Origin: Verrucomicrobiia bacterium
GTDB lineage: Bacteria > Verrucomicrobiota > Verrucomicrobiia > Limisphaerales > JAEYXS01
Direction of reading: 5' to 3'
Length of the DNA stretch: 64,000 bases
NCBI GenBank assembly: GCA_036405135.1
Contig: DASWYF010000010.1
Coordinates: forward strand, 1 to 64,000
In this document: positions 14,526-30,194 of the stretch, one piece after another
How positions within the stretch are numbered: the stretch's first letter is position 1
How the letters are laid out: each line of letters begins with the position of its first letter
The notes under the pieces: model-generated
What the model was told of the DNA's origin: nothing
Seen by the model: only the letters and a program-made list of their open reading frames with translations
Databases searched by the model: none
Made by a program: the position numbers and the translations under genes

Positions 14526-16235
14526 TCACGGCGTATCTTTCAGTTTTGGATCGCCTGATATCTTGCGGATGGCTTCGGTGACCGCTTCACGGACTGAGAG
14601 CTGTGCGTGATCACGCAGAGCTTCCAGGTCAGGCAGTGAGTCCTTGGCCACGGGACCGATCTTGCCGAGTGTTTCAGCGGCTTTGGTGACGACCCGTTCT
14701 TCGGGGTGGTGCAGACCTTCACGAATTTTAGGGACGGCAATCCGGGCTGTGGGACCCATCGCACCGAGTCTTTCGTAGCAAGTCAACACGTTGCCGGGAT
14801 GCATGTAAGCTACCTGTGCCATGACGAAAGCATTGGTGTCACCCGTGAGCTTGCCGATGAGGTTCCAAGCACTCGAACGAGTTTCAACGGATATGCTGTT
14901 CGTGAAAGAACGGATCAAGTTGAGATCAATGTCATTCGTGCTGTCCATCTCCGCCAGGAATCGGATGATGTAGTAATCTGGTCGTGAATCACGGGTATCC
15001 CGGAGGATGTCTTGCAGGCCGGGAATGACCTTGGGGCTGTAGCGGGCGAATTCTTTCAGTGGCGTATAAGGCTCGTCCCAAAAATCTGGATAGGGTGTGC
15101 GGCTGTGCAAGATCCGGGTTGCATCGAACATCTTTGGCCGCCGCCTGATGCCATCCAGTGCGAGCGGCACGATACGGTCCACTTCATTCGTGAAGGGCGT
15201 GAGAGCGTGCAGAGCGAAATCAAAGATCGGGTAATCATCGGCGTTCAATGTTTGGATGAACACTTCTCTGGCTGCTGTGGATTCGGGCAAGGTCAGCTTA
15301 AGCAGGCCCAGTGCGATGCTTCTTTCCACGCGGTCTGGAGAGGCAGCTTTTGTGACAAGCAGGGGAATGCGCTGGCTGGCAGCAACTTTAAGATTGGTCC
15401 CATAATCATGGGGCATCCCGATCATCGCCTGTCCTAAAGCGGGCCTGAACAGCAGAGGAATGATGCGCGGATCTGTACTGCCAACTTTTCGCAAGGTGAA
15501 ATATACATCCATCGGTAGGGTGTTGGAAGCATACCTGGAAGAGAGGATCAGATTTGTGCTGACGATGCCTCGTGCAGTCGCCAGCACTTGAGTTTGCACC
15601 AGCAGGGAACCGCCGAAACCGCTGCTAACGATTTGATACTGGTTTGACGGTCCCGTGCGTTTGAACATGTAGCCCGGTAAGATCGCATTTGTGCCGATGA
15701 GCTGAATTCCTTGGACGGTTCTGTTAGTAGAGGAGAACACAGAGATGGGGACTGCTGCCTGGTGGTAGGCAACCGTGTTGTTGGTCTCCAGCCACGTAAG
15801 CAGCATGGGCATGGCCGGAGCAGCATTGGTCTCCAGCTTGAGTAAAAGCGTCTGGATGGCCTGAGTGATCAATTGCTGCCTAGGCTTGAAGAGGCTTTTT
15901 CTAAAAGGCGCCGGGATGTTCTGGTGGTGGGACAGCAGCCATTCATCCCATTTGGACGGTTGATGGATAAGTTCACGGCCCAAGTATTCTGCGCCCGCCG
16001 GTCCCATCTGGGTGAAGGCCTTGGCGACTTCGTCCATTTTACTCCAGTTAGTCGTGCACTGTGCGAGCCATTCACTGGCGGGGATGCCTTGGTAGGATGG
16101 TTCGGGCTCGCCACGGTTCAGGAGGATGGACAGGCCAGTGATGGCGCAGAGGAACAAGAGAATCAAGGTCGCACCCGTCCGGCTCCGCAGGAGAAGAGAG
16201 AAGCGTGAGAAGAATGCCGGCAACCTTTGGGACAT
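14526..16235 (-). CDS. Membrane-anchored HEAT-repeat protein, copy 2 of a tandem
   Basis: 569 residues, same plan as its neighbours: basic start MSQRLPAFFSRFSLLLRSR, one hydrophobic helix (~22-42), conserved YQGIPASEWLAQCTTN and AAPAMPMLLTWLE segments, a central part of no clear repeat type, and C-terminal HEAT repeats ending VTEAIRKISGDPKLK. The three proteins differ at many positions, so the duplications are old, yet the gaps between genes keep a common AGGTCAAGC segment (14501-14509 and 16263-16271), so the units duplicated together with intergenic DNA. Nothing indicates a catalytic role. Confidence 0.8.
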   Translation of the reverse strand: MSQRLPAFFSRFSLLLRSRTGATLILLFLCAITGLSILLNRGEPEPSYQGIPASEWLAQCTTNWSKMDEVAKAFTQMGPAGAEYLGRELIHQPSKWDEWLLSHHQNIPAPFRKSLFKPRQQLITQAIQTLLLKLETNAAPAMPMLLTWLETNNTVAYHQAAVPISVFSSTNRTVQGIQLIGTNAILPGYMFKRTGPSNQYQIVSSGFGGSLLVQTQVLATARGIVSTNLILSSRYASNTLPMDVYFTLRKVGSTDPRIIPLLFRPALGQAMIGMPHDYGTNLKVAASQRIPLLVTKAASPDRVERSIALGLLKLTLPESTAAREVFIQTLNADDYPIFDFALHALTPFTNEVDRIVPLALDGIRRRPKMFDATRILHSRTPYPDFWDEPYTPLKEFARYSPKVIPGLQDILRDTRDSRPDYYIIRFLAEMDSTNDIDLNLIRSFTNSISVETRSSAWNLIGKLTGDTNAFVMAQVAYMHPGNVLTCYERLGAMGPTARIAVPKIREGLHHPEERVVTKAAETLGKIGPVAKDSLPDLEALRDHAQLSVREAVTEAIRKISGDPKLKDTP

Positions 16236-16291: not shown

Positions 16292-17965
16292 TCAGGGAGA
16301 CGCTTTGCCTTTCGATTCAGCCGAGATTTTTCGGATGGCCTCCTCGATCTGCTCACGGACCAGCAGTTGCGGGTGTGTTCGCAGGGCTTCCAGTTCTGGC
16401 AATGCATCCTTCGCTGCAGGACCTATCCTTCCAAGGGTCTCAGCGGCTTTGGCTACGATGCGCGGTTCCTTGTCCCGCAATCCTTCTCTCACCTTTGGCA
16501 CAGCCCGCCCGGCATGCTCGCCTAAAGCGCCGAGTTTGATGTAGCTCTGCCAGACTGAGCCGTTTTCCAGCCAGGCCATCTGTTCCATGACGAAGGCGTT
16601 CATGTCCCCCGTGAGATTGCCCAATGCGTTCCAAGCCCTCGCCCGCACTAGGGTTATCGTGCTGTTGGTGAAAGAGCCGATCAAAGCGAGATCAACGTTG
16701 TTCGTGTTGCCATTCTCGCCAACGAATTGGACGATTGCGACATCGGGCGGGTTGGGATTTTGCCTCAATATTTCCATGCAACCATTGATGACGCGTGGAC
16801 TGTGCGGCACGAACTCTTTCAGCGTGGCAAAGGCTTCCGTACTGCGCATGGTGCTGGATGCCATGTAGCGCGTGCGCTGCAAGCCTTCCAAGGCTGGTGG
16901 GATGATTCTCTCCAGGTCATTGGTGAATGGCCTGACAGTCACCATGGCATACTCGAACACTGTCGCATCCTTGTCTCGCAGGGCTTGGATGAAGATCTCT
17001 TTGGCGGTGGTTGATTGCGGTAGTGTCAGCTTCAGTAGGGCCATTGCGGTCAGTCTTTCGTCCACGTCCGGAGCAACCGCCTTTTGTGTCAACAGGGGCA
17101 TGGCCCGCAAAGCTGCCATGGTGAGATTGGTTCCGAACCGCGGAGCAGATGAATACCCGCTGCGGTTCGCCACAGGCCGGAGTAATTGCGTGATGATGCG
17201 CGGCTCCGCATGCTCCGCAGTCTTCAATATCTCGTGGGCCTGGTAGGGGATGGAGTTGGCCCGGTAATGCGTCGAGACGATGATGTTCGTCGTCACCACG
17301 CCGGGTGATATCACCGTCATCTGCGTCTGGATGATCAATGATCCTCCCGTCGGAATGCCTATGGACTGGAAACGGTTTGAAGCGGTTTGCACCACGAGTG
17401 CATTCGGAAGGGGGGCTTGAAACATCCCTCCTCCCAAGCCGAAAACTCTGTTGCTGTGGATGGCGAATGACGAGATCGGCACGACCAGTTGGAAGTTGAG
17501 CGCGCCTTTTTGTGCTTCCAGCCAGTCGAGGAGCATCGGTATCGCAAAAGAACTGTGATGGCGTGTACCTTGCAAGAGTCTGAGGATGACGTCTTCCTTT
17601 GCGTGTTGGTGCGGTTTGAGCAGTGTTTTCTTTAAAGAGCCAGGGATGCTGTTGTGGTGCGCGAGCATCCATTCATCCAGCTTTGTAGGTTTGCTGAGCA
17701 GTTCCTCACCGAGATAGATCGCTCCGGATGGGCCCATATCATAGAACGCTTTGGACGCGTCTGTGATCTTCTGGCTGTTGGTAGTGGCCATCTCCAGCCA
17801 TACGCTGGCGGGGATGCTTTGATAGGAAGGCTCGAATTTACGCCGACCTTTAAAGAGGAAAGCTGCGGCGGCGAAAACGAGGACGAGCAAAAGGCAGATG
17901 ACGCCTCCACGGGAGAAGCACGATTTGGCCAATCGCTTGAGCCCTGACACCAGCCTTGGAAACAT
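16292..17965 (-). CDS. Membrane-anchored HEAT-repeat protein, copy 1 of a tandem
   Basis: 557 residues from ATG 17965. I chose this start because MFPRLVSGLKRLAKSCFSR aligns with the starts of the two downstream paralogues and comes just before the hydrophobic helix; the frame is open 45 codons further but that extension would run into the rhodanese gene. Conserved segments are YQSIPASVWLEMATTN, FAIPMLLDWLE, and C-terminal HEAT repeats IVAKAAETLGRIGPAAKDAL and EQIEEAIRKISAES. It lies between the rhodanese gene and copy 2 and is probably the first gene of the three-gene transcript. Confidence 0.8.
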   Translation of the reverse strand: MFPRLVSGLKRLAKSCFSRGGVICLLLVLVFAAAAFLFKGRRKFEPSYQSIPASVWLEMATTNSQKITDASKAFYDMGPSGAIYLGEELLSKPTKLDEWMLAHHNSIPGSLKKTLLKPHQHAKEDVILRLLQGTRHHSSFAIPMLLDWLEAQKGALNFQLVVPISSFAIHSNRVFGLGGGMFQAPLPNALVVQTASNRFQSIGIPTGGSLIIQTQMTVISPGVVTTNIIVSTHYRANSIPYQAHEILKTAEHAEPRIITQLLRPVANRSGYSSAPRFGTNLTMAALRAMPLLTQKAVAPDVDERLTAMALLKLTLPQSTTAKEIFIQALRDKDATVFEYAMVTVRPFTNDLERIIPPALEGLQRTRYMASSTMRSTEAFATLKEFVPHSPRVINGCMEILRQNPNPPDVAIVQFVGENGNTNNVDLALIGSFTNSTITLVRARAWNALGNLTGDMNAFVMEQMAWLENGSVWQSYIKLGALGEHAGRAVPKVREGLRDKEPRIVAKAAETLGRIGPAAKDALPELEALRTHPQLLVREQIEEAIRKISAESKGKASP

Positions 17966-18008
17966 GAGAGAATAACTCTCACGTCTCCTGCGGAAAATCA
18001 AGAGGACA

Positions 18009-18377
18009 TCACGACTGGATCGACCATCCAGAATTGACCAGCCCTTTATAACCGCCGATGAGCGAATACACTTTGCGATAACCGATCTTCTGCGCGGCAT
18101 CTGCTGTCAGCACGGAGCGATAACCGCCACCGCAATACATGATGATCTCCGCATTCACATCCGGATAATTCTTCTCGATATCGCGCTCGAGGATGCCCTT
18201 GCCCAGATGCACCGCTTCCTGGGCGTGACCTTTTTGCCACTCGTGATCTTCGCGCACGTCCATGAGTACGGCACGCGGGTTCGCGGCGAGCATGCGCTTG
18301 GCTTCGTCTACAGTGATCTCCTGCACACGCGGTTGCGCTTCCTGCACCAGCTTCAAAAATCCAGGTGAATGATCCAT
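18009..18377 (-). CDS. Rhodanese-like domain protein
   Basis: 122 residues, a single cytoplasmic rhodanese domain. AVLMDVREDHEWQKGHAQEAVH is the first conserved block, and the active-site loop MYCGGGYRS holds the sulfur-carrying cysteine, with a six-residue loop typical of sulfurtransferases. The end, GYRKVYSLIGGYKGLVNSGW, is the usual C-terminal helix. Such proteins move sulfane sulfur in thiosulfate, molybdopterin or tRNA thiolation pathways; the pathway cannot be told here. It precedes the HEAT tandem and lies 45 bases after the thioredoxin-like gene on the same strand. Confidence 0.9.
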   Translation of the reverse strand: MDHSPGFLKLVQEAQPRVQEITVDEAKRMLAANPRAVLMDVREDHEWQKGHAQEAVHLGKGILERDIEKNYPDVNAEIIMYCGGGYRSVLTADAAQKIGYRKVYSLIGGYKGLVNSGWSIQS

Positions 18378-20335: not shown

Positions 20336-20360
20336 CTTTTTATGTTCCCGCCAGACTACA

Positions 20361-20386
20361 CGGACGCGAATTGACAACGCAAGCGC
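20361..20386 (+). repeat. Left 26-bp direct repeat flanking the acyltransferase cassette
   Basis: Identical at 25 of 26 positions to 22835-22860; the only difference is C/T at the seventh base. It contains GAATTGACAACGC. Here it stands between pyrC and the SGNH gene with no tRNA next to it; at the right copy the TTGACA is the -35 box of tRNA-Gly. Confidence 0.8.
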
Positions 20387-20401
20387 GGTAGCGGCCGGCG
20401 T

Positions 20402-21427
20402 TTACCGTCCCCGCGCTTCATCCACTATCTTGCGGCGGAAAGAGGGCAGGGCATAAAGCTCTTCGGCGATGCGTGCCGAGAGGATCTGCGCCCCTCTTTT
20501 ATTGACATGCAAGGGATCGCTGAAGACGTCTTCATCAGGTGCTTTCAGCCATGCGGAAGCATCGATCAACGGCACGTCCAGAGCCGAAAATTCCGTCTGC
20601 ACGCGCTGATAATATGCCGTCCACTCAGGCCGTTCCATAAACCGTTCCCGCCGGATTTGAGGGGTCGGCATGAACACCACCACCAGGTCCACCCCCCTCT
20701 CCCGGCAAACTTGGACGATATCTACGATGGGCCGGATGAAACCGATCTTACCCGACGTGACCTGCCCGGTGTGATGGATAAATTCCAATTCCTTGGGGAA
20801 TCCGATCTCCGCTGCCCCAGCCAAAGGGTGCGTCGTCTTCTGCTGCGGCATTCCCATCCTGCCCAATACCCGGCGAATGCCCTCCACTGAGACCCAGTAA
20901 CTGCTGGGCTCAGTATACATCGGGAACCAGAGCAAAATCTTCCCAAGTCGGAAACCTCCTCCTTTTCTGCCCTGAACGTAATCCTGATCTTCAATGAAAT
21001 ATTCCAGATGCTCTCCGGCCGGATTGCCGAATCGCCTTCCCGCCGCAGGATCGGTAAGCCGCAATCCAAAAACGCCATACACCACGCATTTGATATTTGG
21101 ATTCACTGTCAAGGCCCTGCGTAACGTAAGACAATGTTCCAGCACCATGGAAGCAGGCACGCCCGCATTGACAAGGCTGACTGGCTGGCCGGATAGCTCT
21201 TCCCAACGGGCTTTAAAATCTGGCTGATGATAGCTGTAAAGCGTGGTCGAATCTCCCAGTAGCAGAATATCTACCGGCTGGTTTAAAGGCAGCTTGCGGG
21301 CCGAATCTTCCCATCGGTTCACGAAGTCGCGGCGATCCGTTTGAAACCAGAAATGACTGGCCACATTGAAGCATCCCAGCAAAAACAGGCAGCAAACGAC
21401 ATTTCGGATGAAAGGACTGCGGCGCAT
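20402..21427 (-). CDS. SGNH-fold hydrolase partner of an MBOAT acyltransferase
   Basis: 341 residues. One N-terminal hydrophobic helix (~7-27) anchors the protein; the rest lies outside the membrane. LLLGDS60TTLYSY is the SGNH block I with the nucleophile serine, and FSD304PLH307VN is block V with Asp and His. This pattern belongs to acyltransferase-associated SGNH proteins of the AlgJ/AlgX or DltD-like kind, which move acyl groups to polysaccharides together with MBOAT proteins. Third gene of a cassette: its ATG is three bases after the stop of the 57-residue protein at 21431-21604, on the minus strand. Substrate unknown. Confidence 0.75.
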   Translation of the reverse strand: MRRSPFIRNVVCCLFLLGCFNVASHFWFQTDRRDFVNRWEDSARKLPLNQPVDILLLGDSTTLYSYHQPDFKARWEELSGQPVSLVNAGVPASMVLEHCLTLRRALTVNPNIKCVVYGVFGLRLTDPAAGRRFGNPAGEHLEYFIEDQDYVQGRKGGGFRLGKILLWFPMYTEPSSYWVSVEGIRRVLGRMGMPQQKTTHPLAGAAEIGFPKELEFIHHTGQVTSGKIGFIRPIVDIVQVCRERGVDLVVVFMPTPQIRRERFMERPEWTAYYQRVQTEFSALDVPLIDASAWLKAPDEDVFSDPLHVNKRGAQILSARIAEELYALPSFRRKIVDEARGR

Positions 21428-21430
21428 ATC

Positions 21431-21604
21431 TCAGAAATCGATATAGATGAACTTCGATGACTGCCCGGAATAATGCAGGATCACAACAAGCATCAGGAAC
21501 CACCAAACACCCCAGAACAGTGAATCTAACGCCGGGCCTTGGCCCTCAGGCGGCAAATCTCTCGCCCCTCCCAGATACTCCAAGGCTTCTTTAATTTTTC
21601 TCAT
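21431..21604 (-). CDS. 57-residue single-helix membrane protein (DUF5989-like)
   Basis: ATG 21604 to TGA 21431, 57 residues: a charged start (MRKIKEALEYLGGARD), then one hydrophobic helix FWGVWWFLMLVVILHY, and a conserved-looking end SKFIYIDF. It begins 15 bases after the MBOAT stop and ends three bases before the SGNH start, so it is tightly packed between them. Small one-helix proteins ending in F-I-Y-x-x-F are found next to MBOAT/SGNH pairs and are known as DUF5989 (recalled, not checked). It is likely a small subunit of the O-acyltransferase complex. Confidence 0.7.
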   Translation of the reverse strand: MRKIKEALEYLGGARDLPPEGQGPALDSLFWGVWWFLMLVVILHYSGQSSKFIYIDF

Positions 21605-21619
21605 AAGTCGTTCCCTAAA

Positions 21620-22795
21620 TTATCCGATGAACAGGCGGTTCAAGAAAAACCAGGCCGTTTCCGTGTCCATGCAGAAAAAAGCCCAGCCCAAATTCACGGA
21701 ACCGAACGTCAACACCCATCCGCACGCACGGCCGAAAGCAGAGGGCTCCTTATCAGTTGGCGGTCGAAAACTCGTCCAGAAACGATGGATCGCCAGCAAG
21801 AGCCCATGCCATAAGCCCCAGATCAGAAAATTTGCCGCTGCCCCATGCCATAAGCCGCTGATCAACATCGTCAGGATCACATTCCGATAAACTGCGGGCA
21901 ATGGCACCTGTGAACCGCCCAATGGAATGAAAACATAATCCACCAGCCAGCGATAGAGAGACATGTGCCAGCTCCGCCAGAAATCTGTGATGTTCGTGCG
22001 CAGATAAGGCCAGTCAAAATTCTCCGGTATGGTGATGCCAAACAATCTTGCCGAACCGATGGCGATGTCCGAATACGCCGAAAAATCGAAATAGATTTTA
22101 AACCCAAAAGCCAGCAGCCATACCGGCAGAATCCACCTCTCCGCCAGCGCGATGTCATGGACGTTCAAATGATCCGTGAACGCCGTGAGCAGATCGGCGA
22201 TGGCAAATTTTTTGACCAACCCCGCGAGAATACGGGTGACCCCGCGATTCCAATCCAGCCCCCAATCCGTGGCCGGATTTTTCAACCCGGCTGCGAAAGA
22301 TTGATAACGCTTGATCGGCCCCGCCACCATCGTGGGGAAATAAAGGATGAAAGCCATGTAATCACGCAAACGCCCCGCCACCGCCGTGCCTCGATACCGG
22401 TCCACTGCATAATGGATGAACTCAAACGTGAAAAAAGAGATGCCCAAAGGCAGGAATGCACCTTTCCAATGAAGCGGATTGGCACCCGGGAACAGCAGAC
22501 CCGTAAAAAAATTCCAATACTTGAAGATGATCAAGATCAGGATCGCCTGGATCACCCCCACCAGACACCATTTCGAACCAGGCCGGTAAAGGCGGCTGAA
22601 GATTGCTTCCCAGAGGAATATCCCCAGACAGGCCGCTCCCGCATATCCACCTACTTCATGGATGGAATAATAGACAAAGAAAGCAGCTCCAAACCCGATG
22701 CAGACAGACGCCCGGTGTTCCTTGCCACAGTAGCGATATAAAATCGCCGCTGGAACCAGAAAACAGAAAAAGTAAGCGAATGTATTGAAGATCAT
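21620..22795 (-). CDS. MBOAT family O-acyltransferase
   Basis: 391 residues, about ten hydrophobic helices. The MBOAT core is clear: FFTFEFIHYAVDRYRG, FPTMVAGPIKRYQSF, FDFSAYSDIAIGSARLFGI, and the C-terminal SGLWHGAAANFLIWGLWHG with the invariant histidines. These enzymes carry acyl groups across the membrane for polysaccharide or alginate acetylation. The family is usually 450-500 residues, so this one is short; its start MIFNTFAYFFCF is at ATG 22795. It heads a three-gene cassette with the 57-residue protein and the SGNH hydrolase, and has near-identical direct repeats on both sides. Confidence 0.9.
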   Translation of the reverse strand: MIFNTFAYFFCFLVPAAILYRYCGKEHRASVCIGFGAAFFVYYSIHEVGGYAGAACLGIFLWEAIFSRLYRPGSKWCLVGVIQAILILIIFKYWNFFTGLLFPGANPLHWKGAFLPLGISFFTFEFIHYAVDRYRGTAVAGRLRDYMAFILYFPTMVAGPIKRYQSFAAGLKNPATDWGLDWNRGVTRILAGLVKKFAIADLLTAFTDHLNVHDIALAERWILPVWLLAFGFKIYFDFSAYSDIAIGSARLFGITIPENFDWPYLRTNITDFWRSWHMSLYRWLVDYVFIPLGGSQVPLPAVYRNVILTMLISGLWHGAAANFLIWGLWHGLLLAIHRFWTSFRPPTDKEPSAFGRACGWVLTFGSVNLGWAFFCMDTETAWFFLNRLFIG

Positions 22796-22834
22796 CGGAT
22801 TCGGCGCTTGGCGTCCACGCCCTCCAACCTATGC

Positions 22835-22860
22835 GGACGTGAATTGACAACGCAAGCGCT
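22835..22860 (+). repeat. Right 26-bp direct repeat flanking the acyltransferase cassette
   Basis: Matches 20361-20386 at 25 of 26 positions and in the same orientation. It contains the TTGACA that serves as the -35 box of the tRNA-Gly promoter, so this copy is part of a working promoter while the left copy is not followed by a tRNA. Confidence 0.8.
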
Positions 22861-22871
22861 ACGGCTAACAT
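22844..22871 (+). promoter_or_regulatory. Promoter of tRNA-Gly
   Basis: TTGACA (22844-22849) is a perfect -35 box, 16 bases before TAACAT (22866-22871). Predicted start near 22878, about 15 bases before the mature tRNA 5' end at 22893. Confidence 0.65.
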
Positions 22872-22892: not shown

Positions 22893-22966
22893 GCGGGTGT
22901 AGCTCAATGGTAGAGCTCCAGTCTTCCAAACTGGCTACGAGGGTTCGATTCCCTTCACCCGCTCCA
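22893..22966 (+). tRNA. tRNA-Gly (anticodon TCC)
   Basis: Acceptor stem GCGGGTG pairs with CACCCGC, discriminator T, CCA encoded (22964-22966). The D arm is AGCTC...GAGCT, the anticodon stem CCAGT/ACTGG encloses CTTCCAA (anticodon TCC, glycine), and the T arm has TTCGATT. All stems are paired. Confidence 0.97.
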
Positions 22967-24382
22967 TTTTCCCAAACTCCGTAGCGGAACTAACCTTTCG
23001 TCGTCCTCGTTTCCAATCCGTAGCAGCCGACGTCAGGAGGCTCTAACTAATCTGGTAAGGATGAGTTCCACCTCGTCCCTAACTTCTCCTTAAAGCTTTC
23101 ACAAACCTTGAGCAGAAACATGGAAACCTAAGCGACCGTAAATCGTCCTTCGTAAATCGTAAATTAATTGTCCCCTCGAAATGACCTACTGTTTGGTTTG
23201 CTCCGCCCGGCAACCCGCTCAAGGCATCCTGTGCTACGGCACTCTAGCCTCCGGCCTCAACCTCCCAAACCCAACCCTCGCCAGCCACCCCACAAAGAAA
23301 CGCAGAACCCAAATCATTGGTAGGGCGGTGGTGCTCCGCCGCCCTGACCTTTTTCGTCAAAGTCACACGATAAGCAAGACCCGCCACCCGCCGAAGCCTA
23401 ACCGCTCTCACCGCCCTCGCCCCCCTTGGGGGGAGAGGGCAGGGGTGAGGGGGCACGCACGCCAAACGTAAACAAAACGTCCAGCCACTCTCCCTCCCAC
23501 CACCATGGGCAGCCGACCTTCGGCCTCTGCATTCCCTTTAAGGAACTATGTCAAAGAGCAATGAAACCATCCGACCCCTGCGAGCTACCGTGTTCTCCCC
23601 CTCTACGATTGAGAGTTCAAATTAAGCGTGTGTTTAGTTCCCGGCCGGTTCCGCAGTGGTTACTCTGGGATTCCCCGAACCGTCATAAAATCCTACGCCG
23701 CCCGACGTCCCTTTCCCCCTCCAGCTTACGAGCCCCAATCCACACGCCCGACACACCCACAGATCCTATTCCAAACCCGGTAGGGCGGAGCTGCCGCTCC
23801 GCCGTAACTCTTTTCGCAACTGCACCACCAAGTTTAAAACAGCAGACTCGATGCAAGAGAGCTTTTCCCCCTTCTCATCTCGTCCTTGATGTTTCCATAA
23901 GGATTGCCAAATACGATTCCATTGAATCATTCAGCGGGGATTCCGGTTCTTCCTGTCCACAATTTAAAACTTAAAACTGAGAACTTAAAATTACCTCAAA
24001 CCCGTCCTTTACCGACAACGAGTTGTCAGCAATCCCACTATCCACCTTCACAACCACTCAAACCACCGAAATCTATTATCCCACAGCGACATTTCTCCCA
24101 ACCCGTTGTGAAAGAGGAAAATCCAATCGAAGATTTTCCCTTTTTCACCCAAAATCATCTCCTCAAGCTTCCTTTAAAATTTACTAAGTTAAAAATAAAC
24201 CCTATTTATCGCATCTCTAGCCTTCTTCAAATTCGTGCTAATTAGTGAAATTCGCGTCTTCTCCCTCTCCGCGTCCTCCGTGTTCCATCTATGGCTTTAA
24301 AAGTAATCCCTTGCTATCCTGTGCCTCTTGTAAATCCTATCAAAAATTCTTCCCCTATTAATCTGACATCTGCTGCAAAGTT
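22967..24382. repeat. 1.4-kb non-coding spacer filled with dispersed repeats
   Basis: No frame here looks like a protein. Recognisable pieces: AGGGCGG/CCGCCCT hairpin at 23322-23345; GGCGGAGC/GCTCCGCC hairpin near 23784-23803; a C-rich/GGGGAGAGGGC palindromic repeat at 23414-23454 (copies at 25410-25460, 29978-30016, 56805-56846); a GCAGCCGAC...TCGGCC motif near 23510 and again at 25469-25491; AACTTAAAACTGAGAACTT near 23965; and 'phrase-like' stretches such as GCTAATTAGTGAAATTCGCG near 24236 and CTCCGCGTCCTCCGTGTTCC near 24266. Such text recurs elsewhere in the window. Confidence 0.6.
23414..23454. repeat. Palindromic dispersed repeat, copy 1
   Basis: Contains CCCTCGCCCCCCTTGGGGGG followed by AGAGGGCAGGGGTGAGGGGG: a C-rich half, a short loop, and a G-rich half. 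Three further copies in this window share GGGGAGAGGGC.GGGGTGAG or its complement. REP-like and non-coding here. Confidence 0.7.
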
Positions 24383-28569: not shown

Positions 28570-28636
28570 TCCTGCGCGCCCCAAACCGCTCCGAAGACAT
28601 TACTCGAAACTCAAAACCAGAAACTCGAAACCGCAA

Positions 28637-28666
28637 TGAAAACTGAACACTGAAAACTTGAAACTC
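28637..28666 (+). repeat. 30-base phrase-like repeat, copy 1
   Basis: Identical over 30 bases to 30165-30194: alternating GAAAACT and GAACACT units ending GAAAACTTGAAACTC. The 45 bases before it hold looser units of the same kind (ACTCGAAACTCAAAACC). It lies between the small membrane protein and the SGNH esterase gene. Confidence 0.75.
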
Positions 28667-30016: not shown

Positions 30017-30164
30017 TCGTAGCATTAAGGCGTGCTATTTACTAACCGGGATGACAGCAGGAAAAAGCCCGGATTCACTTCGCAAAACCCTTCATTCGAT
30101 TGACCCCATTCGGTTGAAAATCTTTTCCTCCACACTCTCCGTGCCTTCGTGATTTATTTCCCAC

Positions 30165-30194
30165 TGAAAACTGAACACTGAAAACTTGAAACTC
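30165..30194 (+). repeat. 30-base phrase-like repeat, copy 2
   Basis: Identical to 28637-28666 in the same orientation, only 1.5 kb away, on both sides of the SGNH esterase gene. The end overlaps the stop codon of the kinase (30193-30195), which reads on the opposite strand. Confidence 0.75.

Follow-up and report, generated by a model that had tools for sequence, protein, structure and literature searches.

In the window studied here, the 64,000 nucleotides at the start of contig DASWYF010000010.1 of a Verrucomicrobiia bacterium, a three-gene acyltransferase cassette separates pyrC (dihydroorotase) from tRNA-Gly(TCC) and is flanked by a short direct repeat. We consider it likely that a promoter shared by pyrC and tRNA-Gly was opened by this horizontally acquired cassette, that the promoter core was duplicated, that the cassette borrowed a promoter from the duplication, and that its products act as a relay resembling DltB-DltX-DltD. 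The ancestor would have carried pyrC and tRNA-Gly(TCC) diverging from one region of about 65 bp with two overlapping promoters. Entry of the cassette into this region, in the lineage of the window, would have left it flanked on each side by some 32-40 bp of promoter-core sequence. The left copy would still drive pyrC, the tRNA −10 box having been lost there, and the right copy would still drive tRNA-Gly, with its pyrC-type half now aiming at the MBOAT gene. Each of the three units, pyrC, tRNA-Gly and the cassette, still has a predicted promoter. The locus would thus be a clean case of foreign genes entering an important overlapping two-way promoter, in which, through duplication of the core, the two resident genes stay served and the newcomer obtains a promoter. 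The features are listed in Table 1.

Table 1. Coordinates of the features at the pyrC to tRNA-Gly(TCC) locus, and of tRNA-Glu, within the window.
Feature	Position	Strand	Evidence or remark
tRNA-Glu	941-1015	minus	
pyrC, dihydroorotase, 453 aa	18974..20335	-	Pfam Amidohydro_1 3.9e-31; NCBIfam TIGR00857 pyrC_multi 401 bits, over cut-off
Left promoter-core copy	20361..20392	.	26-bp repeat plus 6 bp aligned to the single site of the congener
Inserted segment	20393..22833	.	2441 bp (about 2.44 kb); absent from congener G001 (BLASTN)
SGNH-fold protein, DltD/PatB-like, 341 aa	20402..21427	-	One N-terminal hydrophobic helix; GxS, DxxH
DltX-like membrane microprotein, 57 aa	21431..21604	-	C-terminus FIYIDF, acyl-shuttle motif FxYxxF
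MBOAT, DltB-like, 391 aa	21620..22795	-	Pfam MBOAT 1.8e-32
Right promoter-core copy	22834..22865	.	tRNA-Gly promoter (+) and predicted pyrC-type promoter (-) facing MBOAT
tRNA-Gly promoter, TTGACA-16-TAACAT	22844..22871	+	Matrix score and sigma-70 scan
tRNA-Gly(TCC)	22893..22966	+	ARAGORN

The 26-bp direct repeat, CGGACG(C/T)GAATTGACAACGCAAGCGC, is present at positions 20361-20386 and 22834-22859, both copies on the plus strand and identical at 25 of 26 positions. The original prediction had given the identity, the orientation and the left copy correctly, but its right copy (22835-22860) was placed one base too high. As it had also stated, the two copies enclose exactly the three genes for MBOAT, the 57-aa protein and the SGNH protein, all on the minus strand. 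A looser match of 40 nt with 85% identity (20347-20386 and 22820-22859) lengthens the repeat on the pyrC side. A pair of equal similarity was obtained in none of 1000 Markov resamples of the region. A search of the whole genome of 5.81 Mb for the full repeat, with up to 3 mismatches allowed, gave these two copies alone, the reversed control pattern giving no match, and thus the 26-mer is not dispersed. The 16-bp core alone gave 48 genome matches at up to 3 mismatches against 16 for the reversed control, as might be expected if the two copies were not a duplicated promoter but a dispersed element or separate binding sites for a regulator. All except three of the other core matches, however, carry 3 mismatches, the full copies number two in the genome, and throughout the order the element has its fixed place in the pyrC-tRNA gap, which makes this explanation highly improbable; the reading as a dispersed repeat was rejected on the count of two.

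A pyrC - single repeat - tRNA-Gly junction was found in a congener (genome G001, contig C59), where a lone repeat copy lies upstream of pyrC (93% amino-acid identity), with tRNA-Gly(TCC) beyond it. BLASTN of this contig against the window gave two main pieces, contig positions 588-2537 aligning to 20392-18439 and positions 362-619 to 23133-22834. The two alignments, one on either side of the cassette, share 32 bp of the congener (positions 588-619), and so the insertion carries a duplication of about 32-40 bp. The window is therefore the empty site plus an insert, with 32 bp of the target present on both sides, in support of the original prediction that the cassette had been inserted next to, or brought with a duplication of, the tRNA-Gly upstream region. 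No SGNH homologue was detected in G001 or G002. The insertion date is not finely placed, since the draft assembly G001 is the single congener with an assembled locus and G002, 76% complete, is without pyrC. As a separate observation, about 1.4 kb after tRNA-Gly in the window (23000-24370) is without convincing genes; its start is partly conserved in G001, where the aligned piece, 73% identical, reaches 23133.

For a wider view of the site, the upstream regions of pyrC were read at 81 loci, representing 76 distinct relatives after removal of four duplicates and the window itself. The tRNA-Gly(TCC) gene starts within 125 bp of pyrC, in divergent orientation and typically at about 65 bp, in 48 of the 76. 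Together with the junction in the congener, this common arrangement supports pyrC and tRNA-Gly(TCC) as the two ancestral neighbours of the repeat, and the predicted ancestral order of pyrC, repeat and tRNA-Gly is borne out. Alignment of 49 pyrC-tRNA regions revealed a near-invariant core, TTGACAANGCAAG; a TA box accompanies it towards pyrC, and towards the tRNA a TA...T box follows about 16 bp downstream. Of 384 genomes in the class, 28 contain the exact pattern TTGACAANGCAAG linked to the tRNA, and all 28 belong to the order of the window. Relatives without the cassette thus exist, and in none of those surveyed was it present at the pyrC-tRNA site. If the cassette were ancestral at the site and the relatives had lost it by recombination between the repeats, deletion would likewise leave one copy; the single-copy junction, however, is shown by many families of the order and the cassette is rare in it, so that parsimony disfavours such a loss, and we regard it as extremely improbable.

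Two further arrangements were noted in this survey. Two identical tRNA-Gly promoter regions are present in genome G233 (C65:108738-108795 and C88:45160-45217), and two copies of pyrC in genome G201 (contigs C321 and C372); either contamination or duplication may lie behind them.

The conserved core would be that of a bidirectional promoter for tRNA-Gly and pyrC with abutting −35 boxes. In the alignment of 49 regions, back-to-back −35 boxes are conserved between the two genes, TTGACA in the tRNA direction and TTGCGT (the reverse strand of ACGCAA) in the pyrC direction. The right copy in the window holds the TTGACA of the tRNA-Gly promoter, as originally proposed, with TAACAT ending about 21 bp before tRNA-Gly(TCC); the left copy, as also proposed, is followed by no tRNA, and it is without a TAACAT-like −10 box. 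Position matrices of the pyrC type and the tRNA type were built without the window and G001, and were used to score 127,868 positions of the window. The left copy gave 19.6 for the pyrC type, the best of all positions, and 4.4 for the tRNA type. The right copy gave 20.8 for the tRNA type, again the best of all positions, and 16.3 for the pyrC type, the third best. The mean scores of the relatives were 15.2 (pyrC type) and 19.3 (tRNA type). In a generic sigma-70 scan the tRNA promoter was detected and the pyrC-type promoter, with its −35 box deviating from TTGACA, was missed. These scores point to a left copy in which the pyrC promoter survives but the tRNA −10 box does not, and to a right copy that keeps the tRNA-Gly promoter and probably supplies a predicted pyrC-type promoter to the cassette, the −10 box of the latter having drifted to TAGGTT from TAGTCT. 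To judge from the conserved sequence and the scores, the cassette would have borrowed a housekeeping promoter.

The relatives in which the two genes have come apart provide a second view of the two promoters. Where the tRNA is absent or has moved (L062, L063, L118, L123 and L126-L128), the pyrC side keeps GCAAG and is without TTGACA. On the tRNA sides that have become separated (L055, L083, L123, L131 and L135), the tRNA-type score is kept at 19.4-21.8 and the pyrC-type score is lost, being 6.9 or less. There are two exceptions, L107, in which the separated tRNA scores low on both promoter types, and L124, in which the tRNA lies farther from its TTGACA than the span that was scored. These losses therefore support the two-promoter reading. 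Because each promoter runs across the −35 box of the other, an insertion that keeps both requires a duplication. Unlike the separated tRNA sides of the relatives, the right copy in the window retains the leftward promoter sequence; recency of the duplication would also account for this retention. Extra DNA of 102-925 bp between pyrC and tRNA-Gly was observed at eight loci (L055, L083, L092, L107, L123, L124, L131 and L135), and the presence of the promoter halves apart, on each side, in several such lineages suggests that this promoter has been opened repeatedly. As in other overlapping divergent promoters, two −35 boxes stand back to back and would serve opposite genes; the present case differs in that the boxes lie between a pyrimidine gene and a tRNA gene, are conserved across one bacterial order and were opened by duplication.

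The cassette itself is rare and patchy. Among 320 genomes of the order, an SGNH homologue and the microprotein were found, besides the window, in six (G113, G260, G278, G281, G282 and G283), and the microprotein profile matched 6 of 384 genomes of the class, one of them weakly. Full cassettes with MBOAT proteins 59-68% identical were detected in Chthoniobacterales, Spartobacteria, Opitutaceae, Acidobacteriota and a genome labelled Deltaproteobacteria. This distribution is most simply read as horizontal spread. In the MBOAT tree, no well-supported clade contained the MBOAT of the window, and the exact donor is not placed. No relative was found in viral contigs, and the plasmid MBOATs were all below 60% identity, at about 36% for the best among the matches listed. 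In the other members of the order (loci L181-L186), neither pyrC nor a tRNA was found near the cassette. One of these loci (L186, in G113; L180:5001-6311) holds a decayed cassette, in which the microprotein (64% identical) and the SGNH gene are present and are preceded by an MBOAT reduced to a C-terminal remnant of 27 aa. In Acidobacteriaceae KBS 83, the cassette lies within an exopolysaccharide locus (Poly_export, Wzz, Wzy_C and Acyl_transf_3), hinting at the polymer on which it may act. Granulicella mallensis is a carrier of the cassette that can be cultivated.

At 13 other cassettes, no flanking repeats comparable to those of the window were detected, the best being a 16-bp match at L161, no better than the controls, and neither pyrC nor a tRNA was found beside those tested. 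The possibility that the repeat was carried by the cassette itself was rejected on this ground. The same comparison bears on the repeats as attL and attR of a site-specific element at the tRNA-Gly locus, of which the cassette would be the remainder. Direct repeats of 26-40 bp do enclose foreign DNA next to a tRNA gene, as in tRNA-associated genomic islands; the locus differs from such islands, however, in that promoter DNA, not the 3' end of a tRNA, is repeated, the insert is 2.4 kb and there is no integrase within the interval. The repeat belongs to the promoter upstream of the tRNA and is outside the tRNA gene, the other cassettes are without comparable repeats or a nearby tRNA, and conservation of the sequence as a promoter in lineages that have no insertion accounts for it fully. 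The att-site reading is thus largely refuted and very unlikely; it was rejected for the missing integrase and for the position of the repeat outside the tRNA. A transposition-like event with a long target-site duplication would explain one unit flanked by a 32-bp target duplication, but neither a transposase nor terminal inverted repeats were found around the cassette, the other cassettes are without such repeats, and 32 bp exceeds the target duplications of common insertion sequences, and so we judge such an event unlikely. As for the mechanism by which the promoter core came to be duplicated around the cassette, a circle with the cassette and a promoter copy entering via short homology, template switching and a long target duplication would all fit.

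The three genes of the cassette are tightly spaced, with 15 and 3 nt between them. Among named families and folds, the MBOAT protein comes nearest to DltB: the match to TIGR04091 DltB (5.8e-52, 177 bits) is below the cut-off of 375 bits, the nearest PDB sequence is DltB 6bug (9e-29), and the fold match to DltB is 1.2e-8. His277 and His317 are invariant. The MBOAT ends in ...FLNRLFIG without FxYxxF, the motif being on the separate open reading frame of the 57-aa protein. This microprotein has one hydrophobic stretch, and its residues 36-57 match Pfam DltX with an E-value of 0.041, below cut-off; 16 homologues show no variation at the F, Y and F of FxYxxF. The SGNH protein matches Pfam ALGX below cut-off (1.6e-4), its sequence being too divergent for a confident assignment. 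The best PDB fold for its AF2 model is DltD 6pfx (4.4e-5), and later matches include PatB 7tlv (1.2e-4), with TM-scores over the query that are low, about 0.4, and a middle part of the model of low confidence. The residues S60 (GxS), D304 and H307 (DxxH) are invariant. In the genome, 97.8% complete, no match to dltC was found, and DltA-like matches were all below cut-off. On these grounds, the cassette was not classed as a Dlt system. A second MBOAT of the same genome, on contig C13, has the fused form and ends in FIYFQF.

From these features, the most likely mode of action of the cassette is a relay similar to DltB-DltX-DltD. The MBOAT would acylate the Tyr of FIYIDF in the membrane microprotein, the microprotein would pass the acyl group on to the SGNH protein at its catalytic serine, and the SGNH protein would esterify an envelope or extracellular polysaccharide. 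Sugars of the cell surface are the probable acceptors of the acyl groups. Since no dltC was found, the acyl donor is probably acyl-CoA. In the Dlt pathway, DltB moves D-Ala from DltC to the Tyr of the DltX motif FxYxxF, and from there it passes to DltD (PMC12148441). The cassette resembles this system of Gram-positive teichoic acid D-alanylation in combining an MBOAT and an SGNH protein with a membrane microprotein that has FxYxxF at its end, and in DltB and DltD as best folds. It differs in the absence of dltC and of a DltA above cut-off, in the gene order MBOAT-microprotein-SGNH, in scores below the DltB and DltX cut-offs, and in its hosts, which are Verrucomicrobiota, Acidobacteriota and others. 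PatA uses acetyl-CoA as donor and has the shuttle motif fused to its own C-terminus (PMC12148441). The PatA-PatB and AlgI-type systems share with the cassette an MBOAT and an SGNH protein without a carrier protein, and the acyl-Tyr shuttle motif (PMC12148441), but their motif is fused to the C-terminus of the MBOAT, in contrast to the separate 57-aa protein of the cassette. The same split, an MBOAT without the motif and a separate microprotein, was found at the other cassette loci of the family.

With the motif on a separate protein and dltC absent, the cassette is, as far as its sequence tells, a carrier-less but split variant, and no description of such a variant was found in the open literature. 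According to a paper of 2025, MBOAT/SGNH pathways other than Dlt are without a DltX-like microprotein (PMC12148441); if the relay reading is true, the cassette would represent, against this statement, a split and carrier-free acyl relay in Gram-negative phyla. We lean slightly toward the broader view that it is a third MBOAT-SGNH architecture, carrier-free and with a separate DltX-like acyl-Tyr shuttle, that has spread horizontally in Verrucomicrobiota and Acidobacteriota and has gained its expression here by duplication of an overlapping tRNA/pyrC promoter.

Three other features were observed elsewhere in the window. A partial copy of 51 nt (489-539 versus 937-987, 92%) of the 3' part of tRNA-Glu lies 448 bp from the original, the kind of scar typically left by an element formerly integrated at tRNA-Glu. 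Two adjacent HEAT-repeat-like proteins on the minus strand (14526-16235 and 16292-18100), similar by eye, are apparently tandem paralogues. A near-identical 33-nt repeat (97%) with a simple motif like ACTGAAAACT is present at 28634-28666 and 30162-30194, 1.5 kb apart.
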